Origin: Bdellovibrionales bacterium
GTDB taxonomy: Bacteria; Bdellovibrionota; UBA1018
Length of the DNA: 64,000 nucleotides
Assembly: GCA_018266355.1 (NCBI GenBank)
Contig: JAFEAP010000013.1
Coordinates: 1 to 64,000 of the forward strand
Direction: 5' to 3'
The stretch's first letter is position 1. Every line of letters begins with the position of its first letter. Below the pieces are notes generated by a model. It searched no databases and was not told where the DNA came from. It saw only the letters and a list, made by a program, of their open reading frames with translations. Positions 53,823 through 63,961 of the stretch are shown here, piece after piece. The translations under genes were made by a program, and so were the position numbers.

Positions 53823-54233
53823 ATGGCGAAAAAAGTTTTGATCGTCGATGACATCGCGTTCGTGAGAAAAACCCTGGCGGAAATCCTCCGCGAGGGAGGT
53901 TATCAAGTCGTCGGCGAAGCGTCCGACGGTCGCGAAGCGGTCGAGAAATGGACCGAGCTCCGTCCCGACGTGGTCACCATGGACGTCGTGATGCCGAACC
54001 TGAGCGGCATCGACGCGACGAAGGAAATCCTGAAACGGGACAAGCAAGCGATCGTCGTGATGATCTCCGCGATGGACCAGATCCACCTCGTGATGGAAGC
54101 GATCAACGCCGGCGCGAAAGACTACATCCAGAAACCTTTCCACTCGGGCGACATCCACCAGGTGATCTCCCGCGCCCTTCGGGGCGAATCGAATCCCGAA
54201 GCTCCGGCGACGCTCGCTCCCCGGGCCGGTTAG
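53823..54233 (+). CDS. CheY-like single-domain response regulator
   Basis: 136 residues of receiver only. The acidic pair DD sits in VLIVDDIAFVR, phospho-Asp in VTMDVVMPNLSG, Ser/Thr in VVMISAMD and Lys in YIQKPF. It is not proven to be the chemotaxis CheY. A TAGAAT -10-like element lies at about 53809. A short membrane protein gene begins 17 nt after its stop. Confidence 0.9.
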   Translation: MAKKVLIVDDIAFVRKTLAEILREGGYQVVGEASDGREAVEKWTELRPDVVTMDVVMPNLSGIDATKEILKRDKQAIVVMISAMDQIHLVMEAINAGAKDYIQKPFHSGDIHQVISRALRGESNPEAPATLAPRAG

Positions 54234-54250: not shown

Positions 54251-54559
54251 GTGCTGAAAGTCATCGGCTGGCTCCTGAAGGCCTCGTTTTTCACCGCCCT
54301 CGTCCTGGTCGCCGCCCACTACGTCACGTGGGACGGAAAGACCGTGAGCGACCAGGTGAACTCCACCCTCTCCCACGCGGATAAGTCGGCCCCCGTGCGG
54401 ACGATCTCGAAGAAATCGAAGTCGCTTCTCCGCGACGCGAAGGAAGCCGCCTCTCGCGTCGGAGTCCGACGCGAGACCGACTCCAGACACGACGAGACGA
54501 TTCCGAGCGAGGACCGCGAAAGCCTTCAGGCGCTGATCCATTCTTCCGACGCCGGTTGA
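54251..54559 (+). CDS. Short single-pass membrane protein
   Basis: 102 residues from GTG 54251, which follows AAAGGAAG by 5 nt. One N-terminal helix (VIGWLLKASFFTALVLVAAHY) and a charged C-terminal part of about 75 residues (SKKSKSLLRDAKEAASRVG). Family unknown. It is likely co-transcribed with the CheY-like gene, and a strong terminator follows. Confidence 0.62.
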   Translation: MLKVIGWLLKASFFTALVLVAAHYVTWDGKTVSDQVNSTLSHADKSAPVRTISKKSKSLLRDAKEAASRVGVRRETDSRHDETIPSEDRESLQALIHSSDAG

Positions 54560-54586
54560 TTGATCCCGAGCGTGAAAATAAAAAGA

Positions 54587-54622
54587 GGGAAGGCGGACGA
54601 AATCCGCCTTCCCTGAATTTTT
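54587..54622. terminator. Bidirectional rho-independent terminator
   Basis: A perfect 11-bp stem (GGGAAGGCGGA/TCCGCCTTCCC) with a 5-nt loop (CGAAA) is followed by GAATTTTTT on the plus strand and by CTCTTTTTATTTT on the minus strand. It closes the rightward membrane-protein gene and the leftward small secreted gene. Confidence 0.92.
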
Positions 54623-54642: not shown

Positions 54643-54843
54643 TTAGTTGCCGTTGCCTTGCGTGTTCTTTTTCTCGACCGTCTGGCCGCCGTTATTCGAA
54701 GCGGCTTGCTTGTCGGCGGCGAGGATCTTGCCCGCGACGTAGTCTTCGCAAGCGGTCTTGCCGTTCGAGTAGTCGACGGCGAAAACGGAGATCGGGTTCA
54801 GGAACGCGGCCAGGACGAAAAGCAGGGTAAAACGGGACTTCAT
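54643..54843 (-). CDS. 66-residue secreted protein behind a sigma54 promoter
   Basis: MKSRFTLLFVLAAFLNPISVFA is the signal peptide and about 44 residues remain, beginning VDYSNGKTACEDY and rich in Asn, Gly and Lys at the end. AGAGG lies 7 nt before the ATG. A sigma54 -24/-12 site lies about 65 nt upstream. The protein is too small for an obvious fold and may be a secreted or pilus-associated peptide. It is last in the leftward hit/Tad region and closes with a strong terminator. The longer frame to 55017 is not supported. Confidence 0.6.
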   Translation of the reverse strand: MKSRFTLLFVLAAFLNPISVFAVDYSNGKTACEDYVAGKILAADKQAASNNGGQTVEKKNTQGNGN

Positions 54844-54907
54844 ACTCACACCTCTCAACACACAGTGAGAACCCTTCATATCCAACGTCGGGTCCATACT
54901 GAGTATT

Positions 54908-54925
54908 AAGCAACGCGGATGCCAA
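54908..54925 (-). promoter_or_regulatory. Sigma54 (-24/-12) promoter for the small secreted gene
   Basis: Minus strand TTGGCATCCGCGTTGCTT fits the sigma54 consensus TGGCAy-N5-TTGCw. The invariant GG and GC are separated by 10 nt. Transcription would begin near 54900, giving a leader of about 57 nt. Confidence 0.65.
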
Positions 54926-55041
54926 GCGTTATAGTGAGTTAAATAGTTGAAATTTAAGGCCTTTTGCCTGGGTCGTTTTTGGCCTGTTGCACGGATGACT
55001 GACGGGTGCCCAATCATTAGGCAGTCGAACCGGGCCGAAAA

Positions 55042-55356
55042 TCAGTTCCCGGTCGCGCTGTTGAGAAGCGGGCTCTTGTTCGCGTCGTCTCCGCCGCCTT
55101 CGAATACGTAGCCCGAGGGAAGGACCTGGTTCGCGGTATTCTTGCAGGAAGTGGTGCTCCCTTCCCCGATCTTCGAGGGGCAGCACGCCTTGTAGGCCTC
55201 GGTTCCGAGCACGTCGGCGCCGAAAGAGGCGTCTCCGCATTCCTTGCCTTTGAGGGTCGCGGTGCAGTCCGATTCGTCGGCGAACGCGACCGAGGTGAGG
55301 CCGAGGCCGGCGACCAGTCCGAGGAAGAAGAAAACCCGTTTCGATAGGAGATTCAT
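55042..55356 (-). CDS. Small secreted Cys-containing protein, putative hit (Bd0108-like) protein
   Basis: 104 residues with a signal peptide (VFFFLGLVAGLGLTSVAFA, then DESDC). The mature part holds five cysteines (SDCTATL, KECGD, KACCPS, SCKNTA), so disulfides are likely. It follows the YD-repeat gene by 15 nt and both follow the Tad pilus operon. In B. bacteriovorus the hit locus has a small signal-peptide protein (Bd0108, about 100 residues) next to Bd0109 and a flp/tad cluster, and hit mutations permit prey-independent growth. The assignment is from size, signal peptide and position, not from sequence identity, which I cannot test. Confidence 0.6.
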   Translation of the reverse strand: MNLLSKRVFFFLGLVAGLGLTSVAFADESDCTATLKGKECGDASFGADVLGTEAYKACCPSKIGEGSTTSCKNTANQVLPSGYVFEGGGDDANKSPLLNSATGN

Positions 55357-55371
55357 GTTCGTGCCCCCGCT

Positions 55372-57045
55372 TTAGAACGACAGCGTGACGCCCGCCGGCC
55401 GGATGATTTCGAGCAGGTTCTGGAAGGCCGAGGTGACCGCGAGCGCGATCTTGCGGCCGCCGGTCGAATCGACCTTCTTCACTTCCCCGCTATTCGTGTA
55501 GCTGACGTTGATCGTGCCCATCTTCGGGTCGGTGATCTCCACCGGCTTCGAGCTTTCGTTGTACTTGAAATTGATCTGCTTCTTACCCTGGTCGATCATC
55601 GTTTTGATCCGGCCGAGGTTGTCGTAAAAGAGGTGAACTTCCGCACGCGCGGAGTTCTTCGCGACGACGAGGTTCCCGCGCGTGTCGTACTGGAAGGTCG
55701 ACCAATCGACGCGCTTCTTGTTCGCCTTCTGGTATTTCACGACCCGGTTCACCTTACCGGCGCGCTGATCGTAATTCAGCTCGGTGACTTCGTTCGGCGT
55801 GACCTTCTTCGTCACGCGACCCTTCGTATCGTAGGCGAAGGTCGTTTCGTCCTTGCCGCGTTTGATGAAGATCGGAAGGCCGCAGCACTCGTTATAAATG
55901 GTCTCCGTCCGGGCGCCGTCGAGCGTGGATACCATCCGGTAGGTCCACTCCTCGCCGTTCGGCTTGTTGCGGAAGACGTATTCGTAGCCGCTCGTCGAAA
56001 TCGGGCGGCCTTCGGCGCTCTTCAGGACGACGCCGACCTTGAGGCTGTTCTTCTCACCCGGGACCTTGTCGTAGGTGTACTCGGTGATCGAGTTGTCGCG
56101 ATCCTTGACCGACTTCACGTTCTCGAGCTTGTCGCGGCCCCAGTACGCGATCTTCATCGTCGTCTTGTCGGAGTAGCCGATCTCGACGAGGTTGTGGCGC
56201 TTGTCGGAGCTGAATTTGTAGGTATAGACGTTCCCGTCGGTATCGCGCGAATAGCTCATCTCGCCGAGGTCGTTGTAGCGGTATTCCGCGATCTTGTTGT
56301 TCTCGGCCTGGATCTTCTCGACCTTCCCGAGCTTGTTGTACGAGAGGTACATCTTCCGATTCAGGTTATCCTGGATCTTCTCGATCTTGCCGTCGCGGTT
56401 ATAGGCGAGGTTGATGAAATTCCCGTTCTTGTCCTGGACCTTCAGGATTCGCCCGTTCGCGTCGAACGTCTCGGTGCGGCCCGTGTCGGTGCTGCGGACG
56501 TAGCCGTTCTTGGTCACGGTGATCCACTGGAACGCGAAACGGTTCGAGACGAGCTTCGCGCCGACCGGGAGTTTGCGCGCCTGGATTTTGCCTTGGGCCC
56601 GCCACTTCGACCATTCGTTGTTCCGGAATTCGGCGTTCGTGCGGAGTTGCTTCTTGTAGCTCTCGAGTTGGGCGCCCGAGCCGATCGCGCCGGCATGCTG
56701 AGCGACGCTCGCGATCTGCGCGACCGCGGCCTCGAGTTCCTTCGCGTTGAAGGTCGGGGCGCTGAACCGATTCTGGGCGCCGCCGCCCGCCTCGGAGACG
56801 AGCACCGAACCGTCGGATTCGACGGTCAAATAGGCTTCGTAATCGCTGCCCCATCCCCATCCGAAGATGCCGTTGTACGGGCTCTTCGAGTTATAGACGC
56901 GCTCGATCTTCGGTTCGTAACCGCCCGGATAGAGGACGTCTGTATAGCCGATGAAGAAGTTCCCGTTCCGAATGCTCACGTTCGCTTGGGCGCTCGAAAC
57001 GAGCACGAGGAACGCGGCGAAGGAAACCAACGAAGACTTTTTCAT
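55372..57045 (-). CDS. Secreted YD/RHS-repeat protein, putative Bd0109-like
   Basis: 557 residues with a signal peptide (SLVSFAAFLVLVSSAQA). An N-terminal RHS-like entry (GNFFIGYTDVLYPGGYEPKI, YNGIFGWGWGSDYEAYL) is followed by many YD-type repeats (YNRDGKIEKI, YNKLGKVEKI, YDTKGRVTKKV, YDNLGRIKTM), forming a beta shell or fibre. It lacks the RHS core end and any toxin domain and stops in GVTLSF. AAGGAGAG lies 7 nt before the ATG. The 73-nt spacer to tadB contains two short hairpins. Position next to the Tad operon and the small secreted gene matches the Bdellovibrio hit locus. Confidence 0.75.
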   Translation of the reverse strand: MKKSSLVSFAAFLVLVSSAQANVSIRNGNFFIGYTDVLYPGGYEPKIERVYNSKSPYNGIFGWGWGSDYEAYLTVESDGSVLVSEAGGGAQNRFSAPTFNAKELEAAVAQIASVAQHAGAIGSGAQLESYKKQLRTNAEFRNNEWSKWRAQGKIQARKLPVGAKLVSNRFAFQWITVTKNGYVRSTDTGRTETFDANGRILKVQDKNGNFINLAYNRDGKIEKIQDNLNRKMYLSYNKLGKVEKIQAENNKIAEYRYNDLGEMSYSRDTDGNVYTYKFSSDKRHNLVEIGYSDKTTMKIAYWGRDKLENVKSVKDRDNSITEYTYDKVPGEKNSLKVGVVLKSAEGRPISTSGYEYVFRNKPNGEEWTYRMVSTLDGARTETIYNECCGLPIFIKRGKDETTFAYDTKGRVTKKVTPNEVTELNYDQRAGKVNRVVKYQKANKKRVDWSTFQYDTRGNLVVAKNSARAEVHLFYDNLGRIKTMIDQGKKQINFKYNESSKPVEITDPKMGTINVSYTNSGEVKKVDSTGGRKIALAVTSAFQNLLEIIRPAGVTLSF

Positions 57046-57118: not shown

Positions 57119-57991
57119 TCAGACGTCGATCTTCACGATACGCGAGATGGTGACGTAAGCCGCCACCTCGAGACCGACCACCACTATAAGGATAATCCAC
57201 CCGAAAGTGGTCGTAAACAGCGGCCTCATGAAGTCCGGATCGGAAGTGTAGATAAAGGCGCCCAGGACGCCCGGAACCGCGAGGAGGATCATGCCCTGCA
57301 TCCGGCCCATCGCGGTCATGGCGTCAATTTTTTGTTCGAGTTTGATCCGTTCCCGGATCGTCGTGGTGATCGTGTCGAAGGTCTCCGCCAAATTACCGCC
57401 GGTCTCCTTCAGGATGTTCACGCTGGTGACGAACATCTCGACGTCGTCCGACTGGATCCGCTTCGCGAGGTTATTGAACGCCTCTTCGATCGACACACCG
57501 AGTTTATTCTCGCTGAGCACGAGGTTGAACTCCTGGCGGATCGGATCGGGCAATTCCTGGACGACGAGGCCCATCGACTGGACGACGGAGAGACCGGACT
57601 TCATCCCGTTCGACATGAGGCTCAGACCGTCGATCATTTGGAGCGTGAACGTCTTTACCCGGCGAACGTACATCCAATCGATGATCGGGCGAGGAGCTTT
57701 CCAGCCGACGATCGTCACGATCGAGCCGAGCATGAGCGCCGGCACGACCTGCGGGAGCACGAGCGCGAAGACGATCAGGCCGATCCCGAACGAGGCGATG
57801 AACTGCGCGAAGAGGACGCTGTTCGGCGAAACCTCGATGAACATCAGCGCGAGCCGTTCGACGATGTAATCGCGGGTGCCGATCGACTGGAACCGGAGCC
57901 AATCGAGGAAGCGCTCGGAATAGCGATAGGAGATGTACGCGACGGAGACGAAGAGAAGCGCCATCGCGAAATAGACTTCGATACGATCCAT
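57119..57991 (-). CDS. tadB: Tad pilus inner-membrane protein, TadB-like (GspF domain)
   Basis: 290 residues with one T2SS-F domain: membrane helices near 10-28, 85-130 and the C-terminal pair (MQGMILLAVPGVLGAFIY; GWIILIVVVGLEVAAYV), and a cytoplasmic part (VRRVKTFTLQMIDGLSLMSN, LVLSENKLGVSIEEAF). TadB-like proteins form the platform with TadC. Here no second GspF protein is present in the window, so tadC is missing or elsewhere. GGGAG lies 6 nt before the ATG. Confidence 0.88.
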   Translation of the reverse strand: MDRIEVYFAMALLFVSVAYISYRYSERFLDWLRFQSIGTRDYIVERLALMFIEVSPNSVLFAQFIASFGIGLIVFALVLPQVVPALMLGSIVTIVGWKAPRPIIDWMYVRRVKTFTLQMIDGLSLMSNGMKSGLSVVQSMGLVVQELPDPIRQEFNLVLSENKLGVSIEEAFNNLAKRIQSDDVEMFVTSVNILKETGGNLAETFDTITTTIRERIKLEQKIDAMTAMGRMQGMILLAVPGVLGAFIYTSDPDFMRPLFTTTFGWIILIVVVGLEVAAYVTISRIVKIDV

Positions 57992-58009: not shown

Positions 58010-60187
58010 CTATTTCGCCGCGAACAACCCGCGCGAGATCTTCATGCCCTTCGCTTCCATTTCCTCGACGAACTTCGGGATGAAACCCGTCGGAACGAAG
58101 CGGCCGATGATCTTGCGTTTCTTGTCGAGGCCTTCTTGCTTGAAGACGAAGATGTCCTGGAGCGAGATCACGTCGCCCTGCATGCCGGTCACTTCCGAGA
58201 TGTGGGTGACTTTCCGCGAACCGTCCGGGAGACGGCTCTGCTGGATGATCACGTTCACGGCGGCCGCGATGTTTTCCTTGATCGCCTTCGCCGGGAGGTT
58301 CAGCCCGGCCATCATCACGAGCGTCTCGAGACGCTGGATGCACTCGCGCGGGTTGTTCGAGTGGAGCGTGGTGAGCGAACCCGAGTGACCCGTGTTCATC
58401 GCCTGGAGCATGTCGAGCGCTTCGCCGCCGCGACACTCCCCGACCACGATCCGGTCGGGACGCATCCGGAGACAGCACTTGATCAAGTCGCGGATCGAGA
58501 CTTCTCCCTCGCCCTCGATGTTCTTCGGGCGAGTCTCGAGCCGGACGACGTGGTCCTGGCCGAGTTGGAGTTCGGCGGAGTCTTCGACGGTGATGATCCG
58601 TTCGGTCGCGGGGATGAAGTTCGAAAGGACGTTCAAGAGCGTCGTTTTACCGGAACCGGTCCCGCCCGAAACGACGATGTTCAACTTTCCCTCCACGCAC
58701 GCGCGGAGGAAGTCGGCGATTTCCTCGGTCATCGAACCGAACGTCACGAGGTCCTTGTAGAGGATCCGCTTTTTAGGGAACTTCCGGATGGTGATCGTCG
58801 GCCCGCGCAGCGCGAGCGGCGGGATGATCACGTGCACCCGCGAGCCGTCCGGGAGACGGGCGTCCACGAAGGGCACCTTCTCGTCGACGCGGCGGCCGAG
58901 CGGAGTGACGATCCGTTCGATGACGTTCATCATCTGCTGCTCGCTCGAGAACGTGACCTTCGACATCTCGGGGCGACCGCCCTTTTCGATGTAGATCTGT
59001 TCGCGGGCGTTCACCATGATTTCGGTCACGGAATCGTCGGCGAGGAGGTCTTCGAGCGGCCCGAGACCGAGCGCCTCGTCGAGGACTTCCTTCACCATCT
59101 GGGATTTGAGTTCGCGGGTATTCAGCAGCCCGACGGAATCCTCGGCGTTCAGGATGTCGAAGATCGCCTTTTGGGTGCGCTCGCGCAGCACCGCGCGCTG
59201 TTTCGCGTCCTGGGTGCTCATGTCGGTCTTTTTCAGATCCATCGCGTCGACGAGGGCCTTGTGGATCCGGAGCTTCATCTGGGTCCACGGATCGAGCGGA
59301 CCCGAGGCCGAACGCAACATCGCCGCCGCGTCCGCCGTATTGCCTTCGGCGCTGCCGCCGGGACCGCCGCCCGGGACGACGCGAAGCTGGTTCTGCATCT
59401 TCGCGGCCGCGCCGCTCGGCTTCTTCAGCTTCGCGAGCGCTTCGAGGAGGTTCGTCTGCTGGATCTTCCGGACGAGGTCGTGGTACGCGCGGGTGATCGG
59501 AGCGGACGGGGACGCGATGCAAATCGGGGTCGACTTCGCGAGCGCGCTCTCGCAGGTCGCGGTGTCTTCCGGAATCACGCCGAAGAGCGGGCGATTCAGG
59601 TTCTTCTGGATGATCTGGGGCGTGACGATGTGGGACTGCGAATAGCGGTTCACCACGATCTGCACCATCTCCGGCGGAAAGAGGAGCTCGGCGATCTTGC
59701 CGAGGATGCGTTTCGTCTGGTTGATCACGATCACGTCGGCGGTCGTGACGACGAAGATCGCCGTCGCGGACTCCATCACCTTCATCGCCGAGGGGTCGGT
59801 TCCCTGGCCGCAATCGACGACCACGAAGTTGAAGACGTTCGTGATCCCCTTCAAGAACCGGCCGAGGCCGTCGAGATCGAGGTCGCGCGCGATGATCGCG
59901 TCGCGGGGCGCGCCGATATAGGAATAACCCTGGGGCGCGTTCACCATGTACGGCGCGAGCGCCTTCGGCTCGATCGGGCCCGGTGGCATCTTCGAGACGT
60001 CGACGATCGACTTCGACGGATTCTGGCCGAGGATGATGTTCTGATCGCCGAGGGAGGCGAGGTCGAGGTCGACGAGCAGCGGACGCTGCTTGAAGTTCTG
60101 GAGGTACGCGATCGCGAGGTTGGCCGCGAAGATGGATTTCCCCACCCCGCCCTTTCCGCCCACGACTGCGATGATATGACCGGCCAT
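58010..60187 (-). CDS. tadA: Fused TadZ (MinD/ParA-like) and TadA (CpaF) pilus ATPase
   Basis: 725 residues combining two usually separate Tad proteins. Residues about 1-265 form a MinD/ParA-type ATPase (TadZ/CpaE) with deviant Walker A GGKGGVGKS at the N-terminus and a LVDLDLASLGDQ box. A Pro/Gly/Ala-rich linker (about 270-315) follows. Residues about 320-725 are the TadA/CpaF secretion ATPase (Walker A GGTGSGKTT near 505; ASP-box, Walker B GECRGGEALDML, and His-box LTTLHSNNP). TadZ normally places the pilus machine, and TadA powers it; fusion would fix their ratio. There is no receiver domain at the N-terminus, unlike CpaE. Confidence 0.92.
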   Translation of the reverse strand: MAGHIIAVVGGKGGVGKSIFAANLAIAYLQNFKQRPLLVDLDLASLGDQNIILGQNPSKSIVDVSKMPPGPIEPKALAPYMVNAPQGYSYIGAPRDAIIARDLDLDGLGRFLKGITNVFNFVVVDCGQGTDPSAMKVMESATAIFVVTTADVIVINQTKRILGKIAELLFPPEMVQIVVNRYSQSHIVTPQIIQKNLNRPLFGVIPEDTATCESALAKSTPICIASPSAPITRAYHDLVRKIQQTNLLEALAKLKKPSGAAAKMQNQLRVVPGGGPGGSAEGNTADAAAMLRSASGPLDPWTQMKLRIHKALVDAMDLKKTDMSTQDAKQRAVLRERTQKAIFDILNAEDSVGLLNTRELKSQMVKEVLDEALGLGPLEDLLADDSVTEIMVNAREQIYIEKGGRPEMSKVTFSSEQQMMNVIERIVTPLGRRVDEKVPFVDARLPDGSRVHVIIPPLALRGPTITIRKFPKKRILYKDLVTFGSMTEEIADFLRACVEGKLNIVVSGGTGSGKTTLLNVLSNFIPATERIITVEDSAELQLGQDHVVRLETRPKNIEGEGEVSIRDLIKCCLRMRPDRIVVGECRGGEALDMLQAMNTGHSGSLTTLHSNNPRECIQRLETLVMMAGLNLPAKAIKENIAAAVNVIIQQSRLPDGSRKVTHISEVTGMQGDVISLQDIFVFKQEGLDKKRKIIGRFVPTGFIPKFVEEMEAKGMKISRGLFAAK

Positions 60188-60190
60188 AAT

Positions 60191-61960
60191 CTACTTCACC
60201 TTAATGCGGAAATTGCGCTTCAGATCCTCGGAGCCTTGGGAGGCGTCGTCGATGATCTGGGGCGTGACGAAAACGACGAATTGGCCCTTCTGCTTCGCGA
60301 AGTTCTTCGTGCGCTTCAGATTGAACAAAGGCTCCGTCGTCGTTCCCGTATCGCTCTGGAACGACCCGTCGCCGAACTTATCTTTGTTGAATGCCGTGTT
60401 CACCGTCGTGCTCTCGAAACCGCCGATCGCGGCCGATTCGCCCGATTTGATGTAGAGGACGGTGTGCATCGACTTCGATCCGATGATCGGGTTCGAGCCG
60501 TTGAATCCCACGAGGTTCATGTTCGTGAGATCGGCTTCGACTTGGACCTCTTCGCCCGAGCCGAGAACGGTCGGCGTGAGCTTCGAAATGAACTGGACTT
60601 GGGCCGGCGGCGCGGCCGTGGCCGAAGTGCCGCTTCCCGAGGCGAGCTGGCTCAGGTAGATCGACGTGCTTTCGGTGAAGGTTCCCTGGACGCCGCTCTT
60701 CGTGATGATCGTACCTTGCTTCAGCACGCGGGCGAACCCGGCGTCCTGCGCGCTTTTCAACTTCGGGATGAGCGACGAGAGCGTCGCGCTGAACGAGGTC
60801 GCCTGCGCGCCGGTCGCGCCGTTCGCCTGCTGGCCGTAGCTGATCGAGGGGTCCGCGGTGAAACCCGGACTCCAGGTGAAACCGAAGTTCCGCGAGTAGT
60901 CCTTCGCGAGCTCGACGACGTGGACGAGGAGCTTCACGAGCTTCTCGTTCTTCTTCGGCGGCTGGGGGTTCACGACGATGAAATTGTAGACGTAGTCGCG
61001 GCGGGCGATGCTCGTCGCGGTCGGGTCGTTCACGGCGAGCTGGTTCCCCGGGCGGACGTCCGGGAAATAAAGGCGGGCGACCTGCTCCGCACGGCGGGCC
61101 TGGTCGAGCTGGTCGACGGTGCCTTCGAGGAAGAGGAGTCCGTTCACGATCCGGGTCTTCACGTTCGGAGCGAACGCGGAGACGTCTTCCTGGATCTTCT
61201 TCGCGAGCATGGTGAGCGCGAGCGGCGCGAGTTTCGCGAGAAGCAGGACGCTCTCGGTGTAGCCCTTCTGGTTCGTGACCGCGCGCAGGCGCGCGTAATC
61301 GTCGGAGGTGAAGACTTCGCCGTCGATGACGATGTTCGCGCCGACGACTTTCACGTCGATGCCTTCGACGTCGCGAAGGAGTTCGCGGATCTCGCCCGCG
61401 CGGCGGAGGAGGTTCGTCTGGGTGACGACGACGTCGAAGATGATCTTGATCGTGCCTTCGCCGTCGCGGACGGTGACCGTCGTCTCGCCGCCCTTGAGGG
61501 GTTTGAAGATGAGCTGACGGCGCTGGTCTCCGATGCGCACGGTGGTCACGGCGGTGACCTGGGTGTTGCCGACCTGGATCGCGGCGGGCGAATTATCGAC
61601 GTCGAAATCGAGGTCGACGACCTTGTCCTCGCCGGTCGAAAGCAGCACGCGGCGGCGGTCGGCCTTCGCTTCGGAGATGTCCTTCGTGAGGCGCGATTTC
61701 CGGTAAGGCTCGCGGGCTTTTTGGGTTTTCGACACGGGTTTGCCGGTCTCGACGGGAATGGTTTCCCCGCCGACCGAGGGCAGGTCGCCCGCGTTCGGCT
61801 GATCGCTCGGATCGTTCGGGTTCACGACGGGCGGCGCGTCGCCTTCCGCGGCGAAGGTCCGGGGAACCGAGATCGCCCCGGCGATCGAAAACACCAAAAG
61901 CCAGCTCGTGAGAGCGGCGAGTCGGGTTTCAAGTCTGCGGAGGGCGGTGGTTTTCTTCAT
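60191..61960 (-). CDS. cpaC: Tad pilus secretin (RcpA/CpaC)
   Basis: Outer-membrane channel for the pilus, 589 residues with a signal peptide. An N-terminal pilus/secretin pre-domain (about 95-165; GNTQVTAVTTVRIGDQRR) and BON-like repeats (about 180-280) come before a secretin domain (about 330-589). Secretin hallmarks are LVHVVELAKDYSRNFGF, a Ser/Gly-rich segment and the final VTPQIIDDASQ. It starts with an ATGA overlap with CpaB, 3 nt before the TadZ-TadA start. Confidence 0.9.
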   Translation of the reverse strand: MKKTTALRRLETRLAALTSWLLVFSIAGAISVPRTFAAEGDAPPVVNPNDPSDQPNAGDLPSVGGETIPVETGKPVSKTQKAREPYRKSRLTKDISEAKADRRRVLLSTGEDKVVDLDFDVDNSPAAIQVGNTQVTAVTTVRIGDQRRQLIFKPLKGGETTVTVRDGEGTIKIIFDVVVTQTNLLRRAGEIRELLRDVEGIDVKVVGANIVIDGEVFTSDDYARLRAVTNQKGYTESVLLLAKLAPLALTMLAKKIQEDVSAFAPNVKTRIVNGLLFLEGTVDQLDQARRAEQVARLYFPDVRPGNQLAVNDPTATSIARRDYVYNFIVVNPQPPKKNEKLVKLLVHVVELAKDYSRNFGFTWSPGFTADPSISYGQQANGATGAQATSFSATLSSLIPKLKSAQDAGFARVLKQGTIITKSGVQGTFTESTSIYLSQLASGSGTSATAAPPAQVQFISKLTPTVLGSGEEVQVEADLTNMNLVGFNGSNPIIGSKSMHTVLYIKSGESAAIGGFESTTVNTAFNKDKFGDGSFQSDTGTTTEPLFNLKRTKNFAKQKGQFVVFVTPQIIDDASQGSEDLKRNFRIKVK

Positions 61961-62805
61961 CGACGTTGGCTCGCGGTGTTTCGTTGGATCCGTCCGGCGT
62001 CGCCGCCGAGGATGTCGCTCATCATGGTGGATCCGAAGTTCTTGCGTTCGGTATCGTCGTTGTTCCGCAGGATCAGCGTCAGCGCGTTCTCGCCGTTCCC
62101 GGCGACGAGCGCGACGACTTGGGCCTGCTCGGGATCGACCTCGATCGTGACCGTGTCGTAGCTCGAATCCTCGCTGAGCGACTTGTAGTTCACGCGGTTC
62201 CCGTCGACTTCGACCTTGCGCGCGATGTTGTTCGTCACGTTCTGGCCGACGGAGAGCACGACGACGTCCTGGAGGATCGTCTTCGAGATCTTCGAATCCT
62301 TGCCCGCGCCCATGTCGAGGACGGCGATCACGTCGACCCGGTCGCCCGGCTTGATGAGCTTCGAGACGGAGGACTGGTTCGAGACGTTCATCGCGATCGC
62401 GCGGCGGCCCGGCGCGACCTGCGGCGCGAGGCCGGTTCGGATGCCCGGCTCGGTGATCTTGTTGTAGGTGATCTGCTCGCCCTTCTTGATCGGGACGATC
62501 GCGACCGTACCGAAGATCGCGGCGACCGATTTCTGGAGATCCTTGTTGTTCTCCTCGTCATCGTTCGACGTGCGCTCGAAAGCGATCGCCGAAGGCTCCT
62601 TGAAGGTCTTCGGCACGTTTTCGACGTAGAGCATTTCCTGGGTGATCGTTTGGGATTCCTTGATGTCGATCTTCGCTTTCAACACGAGGACGTTCGTTCC
62701 GAAGCGCTTCTTCGCGCGCTCCTCGACGTCGCTGACCCAGCTCGAAACGAGGAATACCGCGATCAGCGCGATCACTAGCGCCATCGTCATTGCTCGGTTA
62801 TTCAT
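61957..62805 (-). CDS. cpaB: Tad pilus assembly protein CpaB (RcpC-like)
   Basis: 282 residues with an N-terminal membrane anchor (MALVIALIAVFLVSSWV) and an SAF domain (about 45-120; VLKAKIDIKESQTITQEMLY, AIVPIKKGEQITYNKI) and a RcpC-like region (RRAIAMNVSNQSSVSKLI, then GDRVDVIAVL). It likely helps the secretin assemble or binds the wall. GGAGGTG lies 6 nt before the ATG. Confidence 0.9.
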   Translation of the reverse strand: MNNRAMTMALVIALIAVFLVSSWVSDVEERAKKRFGTNVLVLKAKIDIKESQTITQEMLYVENVPKTFKEPSAIAFERTSNDDEENNKDLQKSVAAIFGTVAIVPIKKGEQITYNKITEPGIRTGLAPQVAPGRRAIAMNVSNQSSVSKLIKPGDRVDVIAVLDMGAGKDSKISKTILQDVVVLSVGQNVTNNIARKVEVDGNRVNYKSLSEDSSYDTVTIEVDPEQAQVVALVAGNGENALTLILRNNDDTERKNFGSTMMSDILGGDAGRIQRNTASQRR

Positions 62806-62817
62806 CGTTCACCTCCG

Positions 62818-63387
62818 TCATTCGTCCTGTCCCTTGCAAAAGTCGAATACCGTATTCTCGCCGATGTTCTCGGCGGTCGCCGGCCGTAACCCCTCGCGGG
62901 TCACGATCGCGTTCGTCTGCGTGCACAGGGCGACCGTCGTACGGATCCGCACCTGGGCGCGATCGATCGGCTCGCTTTGCGACGGTCCTTCCGGGGCGGG
63001 TACTCCGCCGCGGGTGATCGCCTGCTTGCTCGCCGTGGCCTTGCCGCCGGTGTCGTCCACCGGCGTCTCGGCCATCCCGATCACCATCCGATTGAAACCG
63101 TATTGGACGAATTGGTCCCCTGCGGTTCCCGGCGTCCGGAAGGACAGCCGCGGATAGTACGGGGAGTTGAAAGTGAGCCAAAGCGCTTGGGCTCGCGCAT
63201 ATTTTTGGTTCACGACGGACATTTGGATCGCGGTGTTCGATCGCACCATGACCACGATAAGGCCCAGGAGGACGGGAAGCATGAAGACGAATTCAAGCAC
63301 GCTCTGGCCGCGCTCATCCCGAAGGGACGGACGGTTACTTCGCCTTGAAAGGTATCGTTTTCCGGCCGCCGCCCAATCAGCAACCAT
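62818..63387 (-). CDS. TadE-like pseudopilin, second copy
   Basis: 189 residues. A TadE-like signature follows a basic N-terminus: RGQSVLEFVFMLPVLLGLIV, with the glycine-glutamate motif of prepilin-like processing. The periplasmic part is about 130 residues with two cysteines. Start ATG 63387 overlaps the end of the first TadE-like gene by 11 nt. Confidence 0.75.
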   Translation of the reverse strand: MVADWAAAGKRYLSRRSNRPSLRDERGQSVLEFVFMLPVLLGLIVVMVRSNTAIQMSVVNQKYARAQALWLTFNSPYYPRLSFRTPGTAGDQFVQYGFNRMVIGMAETPVDDTGGKATASKQAITRGGVPAPEGPSQSEPIDRAQVRIRTTVALCTQTNAIVTREGLRPATAENIGENTVFDFCKGQDE

Positions 63388-63961
63388 TATCGATCTGTCC
63401 TTTCAACCCACGCACCGTCGCCAGGCATTCCTGGTAGGTCGGGTCCCTTCCGAGCCAGCTTTCGCTCGTTAAGACGGCCTGACCCGACGACGCGTTCGGA
63501 GGCGTCCCCGGCCGCCCAATGGGCAGCACGAATAAACGGCTCCTAAATGTATATCGGACTCCCTGCATCCAACTTAAGTCATAGTTCCCCGGATCGAACC
63601 CCGGGCCGCCCCCGATCGACGCTCCCTTGACGGTGTCGTCCTCCCCTTCGACCCCTTGAGCGATCATCGGGAACCGGTCCTCGTTCGAGACCACTCCGCG
63701 CTTCACCATCCGCACGAGGACGTCCTTCGCGCGCTGGATTTGGTCGCCTTTCGAGCTCCCGCCGGAGAGGTACGCGCGTGCCGACATGAAAGTGGCGTAT
63801 TGGACGTAGTTCCCCCACGAAAGCGCGAGGGAGAGCTGGATGAAGAAGAAGAGCAGACCGAAGACGAGGAAGATCGAGAGGGCGAATTCGACGAGCGACT
63901 GCCCGGATTCCTTCGCGGAACCCCGGAGCAGTTCGATCTTTTTAACCCCTCGTTTCGTCAT
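63377..63961 (-). CDS. TadE-like pseudopilin, first copy
   Basis: 194 residues. SGQSLVEFALSIFLVFGLLF is the TadE-type entry, with Glu five after the processing Gly or Ser, then a beta-rich periplasmic domain ending in Cys. Read leftward it is the first gene of the operon in the window. A possible upstream gene is cut by the window edge. Flp pilin, TadV peptidase and TadG-like genes are not seen and probably lie beyond 64000. Confidence 0.78.
   Translation of the reverse strand: MTKRGVKKIELLRGSAKESGQSLVEFALSIFLVFGLLFFFIQLSLALSWGNYVQYATFMSARAYLSGGSSKGDQIQRAKDVLVRMVKRGVVSNEDRFPMIAQGVEGEDDTVKGASIGGGPGFDPGNYDLSWMQGVRYTFRSRLFVLPIGRPGTPPNASSGQAVLTSESWLGRDPTYQECLATVRGLKGQIDNGC

Follow-up and report, generated by a model that had tools for sequence, protein, structure and literature searches.

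A probable hit locus of an uncultured Bdellovibrionota lineage and its second small secreted-protein gene, with a likely counterpart inside a reported small RNA of Bdellovibrio bacteriovorus HD100

In the genome studied here, a tad (type IVb pilus) operon ends in a gene module that is most probably the hit locus of a Bdellovibrionota lineage not yet in culture. Judging from sequence, the second of its two small genes is a genuine protein gene across much of the phylum, and it is also the gene within the transcript described in Bdellovibrio bacteriovorus HD100 as a small non-coding RNA. We place the probability of these two statements together, the identity of the locus and the coding nature of the second small gene, at roughly 0.8. 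How Bdellovibrio passes from growth on prey to growth without it, and back, has long been asked, with bd0108 at the centre of the question. With the present assignment, the reported hit-locus sRNA would become a conserved secreted-protein gene under predicted sigma54 control, testable in a cultured and genetically tractable strain. The gene is new in the sense that it was unrecognised; it is present in HD100, under the description of a non-coding RNA.

The module and the tad operon lie on the minus strand of the window, the whole stretch of 64,000 nucleotides that was analysed. The operon part comprises genes for a TadE-like pseudopilin (63377..63961; PF07811, E 3e-6), a tad-operon protein that is TadE-like by position only and gave no family match (62818..63387), CpaB/RcpC (61957..62805; TIGR03177, E 2e-44), an RcpA-like secretin with a BON domain (60191..61960; PF00263, E 1e-8, and PF04972, E 5e-6), a TadZ(ParA)-TadA(CpaF) fusion ATPase (58010..60187; PF00437, E 4e-66, and CbiA, E 8e-16), and a TadB-like inner-membrane protein (T2SSF; 57119..57991; PF00482, E 8e-18), the counterpart of Bd0110. 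These are followed by the genes for a secreted RHS/YD-repeat protein of 557 aa (55372..57045; PF05593, E 8e-15, and DUF6531, E 4e-12), a small secreted protein of 104 aa with five cysteines in the position of Bd0108 (slot 1; 55042..55356), and a small secreted protein of 66 aa with a single cysteine (slot 2; 54643..54843, position 54643 being the stop end), the two small proteins being read from their translations. A predicted sigma54 promoter precedes the 66-aa gene, and a terminator hairpin of 13 pairs with a T tail (54586..54614, minus strand) would close the transcript. The module is flanked by a convergent gene for a CheY-like response regulator on the plus strand (53823..54233; PF00072, E 2e-31). 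Signal peptides were called throughout by simple, crude rules only. The coordinates, translations, and Pfam matches agree with the sequence-only reading, in which tadB was followed on one strand by the 557-aa YD protein, the 104-aa cysteine-containing protein, and the 66-aa secreted protein. TadZ and TadA form one fused protein in the window, and HD100 has a protein of 739 aa at the same place.

Comparison with HD100, which belongs to another class than the window organism, established the 557-aa protein as the ortholog of Bd0109 at the level of sequence. The two proteins align over their full length with 33% identity (E 5e-95), and Bd0109 is the sole significant match of the window protein within the HD100 genome. 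The RHS repeats scored 55 bits against PF05593 (cut-off 22) and 56 bits against TIGR01643; the AlphaFold model was confident (mean pLDDT 87), and its best relatives in the PDB found by Foldseek were Rhs cores. The predicted YD/RHS beta-cage fold is shared with the RHS-repeat cages of T6SS Rhs effectors, Tc toxins, and teneurins. The window protein differs from them in its short length of about 550 aa, in having neither an autoprotease nor a C-terminal toxin domain or tip, in its conserved C-terminal helix, and in its tie to tad genes. In HD100, bd0109 could not be deleted (PMC3818213, PMC4267844). Two cysteine patterns occur among the orthologs and almost never together, namely four scattered cysteines, seen in Bdellovibrio among others, and an adjacent CC pair, seen in family f9 and in the window's class; the corresponding alignment columns fall at positions 66, 86, 319, 344, and 387–388 of the window protein, which has the CC pair at 387–388, whereas HD100 Bd0109 has the four cysteines.

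The 104-aa gene starts 16 nt after the stop codon of the Bd0109 ortholog, in the manner of Bd0108 (101 aa) of HD100, which lies immediately downstream of Bd0109. No similarity between the 104-aa protein and Bd0108 was detectable by BLASTP (E 18) or by profile-profile comparison (probability 0.3%). The cysteines C56 and C59 of Bd0108 (PMC4267844) are also without an equivalent CXXC motif in the window protein, which contains CC and three other cysteines. The 104-aa protein was therefore termed the slot-1 protein and, as far as these comparisons indicate, is not a member of the Bd0108 family. The sequence-only reading had taken it as the counterpart of Bd0108; position, size, signal peptide, and cysteine content are in line with this, but the sequence is not. 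Almost all loci of relatives have an ORF for a small secreted protein right behind the bd0109 ortholog. An ORF for a small secreted cysteine-containing protein was called in slot 1 in 65 of 85 loci, against 2–3% in dinucleotide shuffles. The slot-1 proteins of Bdellovibrio are homologs of Bd0108 with CXXC. Those of the window's class mostly have a single cysteine, which in many of them belongs to a TGQ-like motif; in one genus the number is four or more. Several slot-1 genes that are separated from the cage gene (the bd0109 ortholog) by over 100 nt carry a sigma54 site of their own. In one Bdellovibrio genome (G191, locus L085), the bd0108-like ORF in slot 1 is truncated and, past the conserved N-terminus, no longer matches its relatives, as is seen in known host-independent mutants.

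Of the 22 Bdellovibrio species, no more than one or two lack a slot-2 gene for a small secreted single-cysteine protein preceded by a separate sigma54 site. A slot-2 gene was also found in most of the other families sampled and in about a quarter of the window's class. The slot-2 proteins of the other families are likewise small and secreted, have one or a few cysteines, and are encoded at the same place. Under strict rules, a slot-2 ORF was called in 48/85 loci, compared to 2–6% in dinucleotide shuffles; on the antisense strand, such small ORFs came to 1/85. Both slots are filled far more often than by chance. The loci were drawn from related genomes, and hence none of these counts are independent. 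A slot-2 gene could not be recognised in the majority of loci of the window's class, and a sigma54 site lies beyond +250 nt in 12 of the 41 loci of this class. A homolog of the window 66-aa protein occupies the same slot in a genome of the same genus (G001, locus L112), the two sharing FLNPI in the signal peptide and a GxxxCE region. No sequence or profile similarity was found between the window 66-aa protein and the 66-aa protein of HD100. For distant families, the small proteins were equated by position, promoter, and features rather than by sequence. The small proteins diverge rapidly. It had been suggested from the window alone that the 66-aa gene is an extra, new member of the locus. The gene was indeed unrecognised and has its own sigma54 site, but it is not particular to the window genome, since it is widespread in the phylum, including HD100. 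In several loci (L080, L082, L084, L086, L087, L088, L105, and L179), a third copy of the small gene follows in tandem, often preceded by a separate sigma54 site; copies two and three of L179 are nearly identical, suggesting a recent duplication.

The promoter assigned to the 66-aa gene from the sequence alone was corroborated. The site TGGCATCCGCGTTGCT (54909..54924, minus strand) deviates from TGGCAYRN4TTGCW by one mismatch, lies 81 nt before the ATG, and contains the GG-N10-GC core with a start codon downstream, and RpoN is encoded in the genomes of the window organism, the same-genus relative G001, and HD100 (bd0843). On the coding strand, the 1200 nt that follow the cage gene contain a sigma54 site with at most one mismatch in 51/85 loci, compared to 0/85 on the opposite strand and 0/84 inside the bd0109 ortholog. 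Sites were found in 22/22 Bdellovibrio loci, in 19/22 loci of other families with up to two mismatches allowed, and in 17/41 loci of the window's class, 12 of which have theirs at slot 2. With at most two mismatches, 50 of the 56 called slot-2 genes have a site 16–115 nt upstream (median 60). In HD100, the slot-2 site TGGCACACGCGATGCA (96743–96758) is among only 10 exact matches to TGGCAYRN5TGCW in the genome, and the transcript predicted from it would start near 96733, no more than about 20 nt from the reported end of the RNA. The HD100 tad operon is FliA-controlled (PMC5430801); FliA (sigma28) sites upstream of slot 2 were no better than in shuffled sequences in most loci. A general sigma54 set of slot-2-like proteins elsewhere in HD100 was rejected, only the 10 sites being present. 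Three other sigma54-like sites of HD100, at 68190, 83751, and 85343 (L132, L134, and L136), precede larger, uncharacterised signal-peptide-bearing proteins of 132–155 aa, and further sites precede flagellar rod-like and chain-length-like genes.

These elements permit a tentative mechanism with two ligands at the Bd0109 cage, to which we would give somewhat less than even odds. The cage of the Bd0109 type, exported by Sec, would sit in the envelope beside a set of small exported proteins. The slot-1 gene, 16 nt behind the cage gene, would probably be expressed together with the pilus machinery, and the slot-2 gene would be carried on its own sigma54-driven, terminator-closed transcript, its protein being induced via sigma54. 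Both small proteins may be ligands of the cage, and the ratio of slot-1 to slot-2 protein might report the state of the pilus or the envelope and set pilus activity and growth mode. Earlier work showed weak binding of the disordered Bd0108 to Bd0109, and prey-independent growth and altered piliation once bd0108 is lost (PMC3818213, PMC4267844). Another explanation, which we consider unlikely but worth attention, is that the small proteins serve as cargo or effectors whose release takes place through the Tad apparatus or together with it, and that the RHS protein is a carrier cage and no sensor of pilus state. The RHS-cage fold, as in RHS and Tc systems, and the rapid divergence of the small proteins are compatible with such a role, and encapsulation of Bd0108 by Bd0109 has been proposed (PMC4267844). 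However, the RHS protein possesses no autoprotease or C-terminal payload, and the altered growth mode and piliation upon loss of Bd0108 (PMC3818213) fit regulation.

The slot-2 gene of HD100 coincides with a transcript that has already been described. A 261-bp "small non-coding RNA" between bd0103 and bd0108 rises in bd0108 mutants (PMC3818213). We matched the HD100 genome by pattern from the primers given in PMC3818213, and the coordinates agree with the published coordinates of the sRNA. An ORF of 66 codons on the minus strand downstream of Bd0108 (96483–96683), with a Shine-Dalgarno sequence before the ATG and a signal peptide, falls within the reported sRNA (96455–96716), and both published RT-PCR primers (96555–96574 and 96633–96652) map inside the ORF. 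The slot-2 frame, with a signal peptide and one cysteine, is intact in 22 loci of the Bdellovibrio group. Between HD100 and L048, 15 synonymous and 3 nonsynonymous changes were counted in slot 2 (p 6e-9), and the pair L072–L077 showed 15 synonymous and no nonsynonymous changes (p 1e-10). The hit-locus "sRNA" of HD100 is most likely an mRNA, because it contains a 66-codon ORF under strong purifying selection. It resembles the window transcript in position and, by prediction, in promoter type and as a short monocistronic unit; the difference is that it was reported as non-coding, whereas here it contains a conserved secreted-protein ORF. In the open-access literature, no paper recognising the HD100 slot-2 ORF was found, and a database record may annotate it as a gene.

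The transcript could instead be a regulatory RNA, as reported in HD100, with an ORF that is incidental or merely accompanying. In keeping with this, PMC3818213 describes a small non-coding RNA that changes with the bd0108 genotype, and an RNA with a dual function is possible. We nevertheless regard this explanation as improbable in view of the codon-level selection, the frame maintained with its signal peptide and cysteine, the Shine-Dalgarno sequence, and the ORFs for secreted proteins that distant families have at this position. In addition, the folding of the slot-2 RNA was no better than that of shuffled sequence (z -0.12), and a search against Rfam gave no match in the window or the HD100 locus. 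On the reading of slot 2 as a protein gene, the rise of its RNA upon loss of Bd0108 fits a compensating second ligand, though it does not prove one. A bolder reading, to which we would likewise give somewhat less than even odds, is that the third protein gene of the hit locus, present throughout the phylum and misread as a regulatory RNA, encodes a sigma54-induced small secreted protein that rivals Bd0108 in binding the Bd0109 cage; this product would then be the output so far missing from the switch to prey-independent growth.

The distribution of the locus was followed through the phylum. A profile search detected the Bd0109 family in 341 of 369 Bdellovibrionota genomes (227 of the 235 good ones), and the orthologs are single-copy and full-length. 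In all 64 fetched loci and in the window, tadB lies directly upstream on the same strand, usually within 100 nt, and a scan of named genomes found it upstream in 72 of the 75 loci with enough upstream sequence. The order of tadB, TadZ-TadA, secretin, CpaB, and TadE genes upstream of the window ortholog recurs in relatives. The YD protein can hardly be an ordinary RHS element placed next to tad genes by chance: although RHS/YD proteins are widespread and neither tadB nor small genes adjoin the homologs of Geobacter sp. OR-1 and Geomonas paludis, which lie outside the phylum, the conserved synteny of single-copy orthologs refutes this within the phylum. This distribution shows the module of tad, cage, and small-protein genes to be ancient in Bdellovibrionota and no speciality of Bdellovibrio. 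The sequence-only reading had proposed the counterpart of the hit locus in a GC-rich relative, to be checked against Bd0109 and against the neighbourhood in related genomes; the full-length ortholog and the constant tad link both uphold it.

The HD100 hit locus (bd0108–bd0109, beside the tad genes bd0110–bd0119) and the window module have the same gene order and strand, including a second small ORF with a sigma54 site, and share the convergent CheY-like gene and the TadZ-TadA fusion upstream. They differ in the small-protein sequences, the window slot-1 protein having five cysteines and no detectable similarity to Bd0108. In Bacteriovorax marinus SJ, a Bd0109 homolog (BMS_0182) is likewise followed by two small proteins (BMS_0183/4) that carry putative signal peptides and do not resemble Bd0108 (PMC4267844); that report concerned one species and noted no promoter or phylum-wide pattern.

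In 53/85 loci, a CheY-like gene lies downstream of the Bd0109 gene at a distance of up to 4 kb, and its orientation was convergent in 52. The 53 loci include that of HD100 (95746–96138, plus strand), whose CheY-like protein is the second-best match in HD100 of the one in the window and no clear reciprocal best match. The gene may be a sign that the conserved neighbourhood reaches further. The window also encodes a small predicted membrane protein between this gene and the module (54251–54559, plus strand), for which a family search gave no confident match and homologs were found nearby in about 10 loci of its own class.
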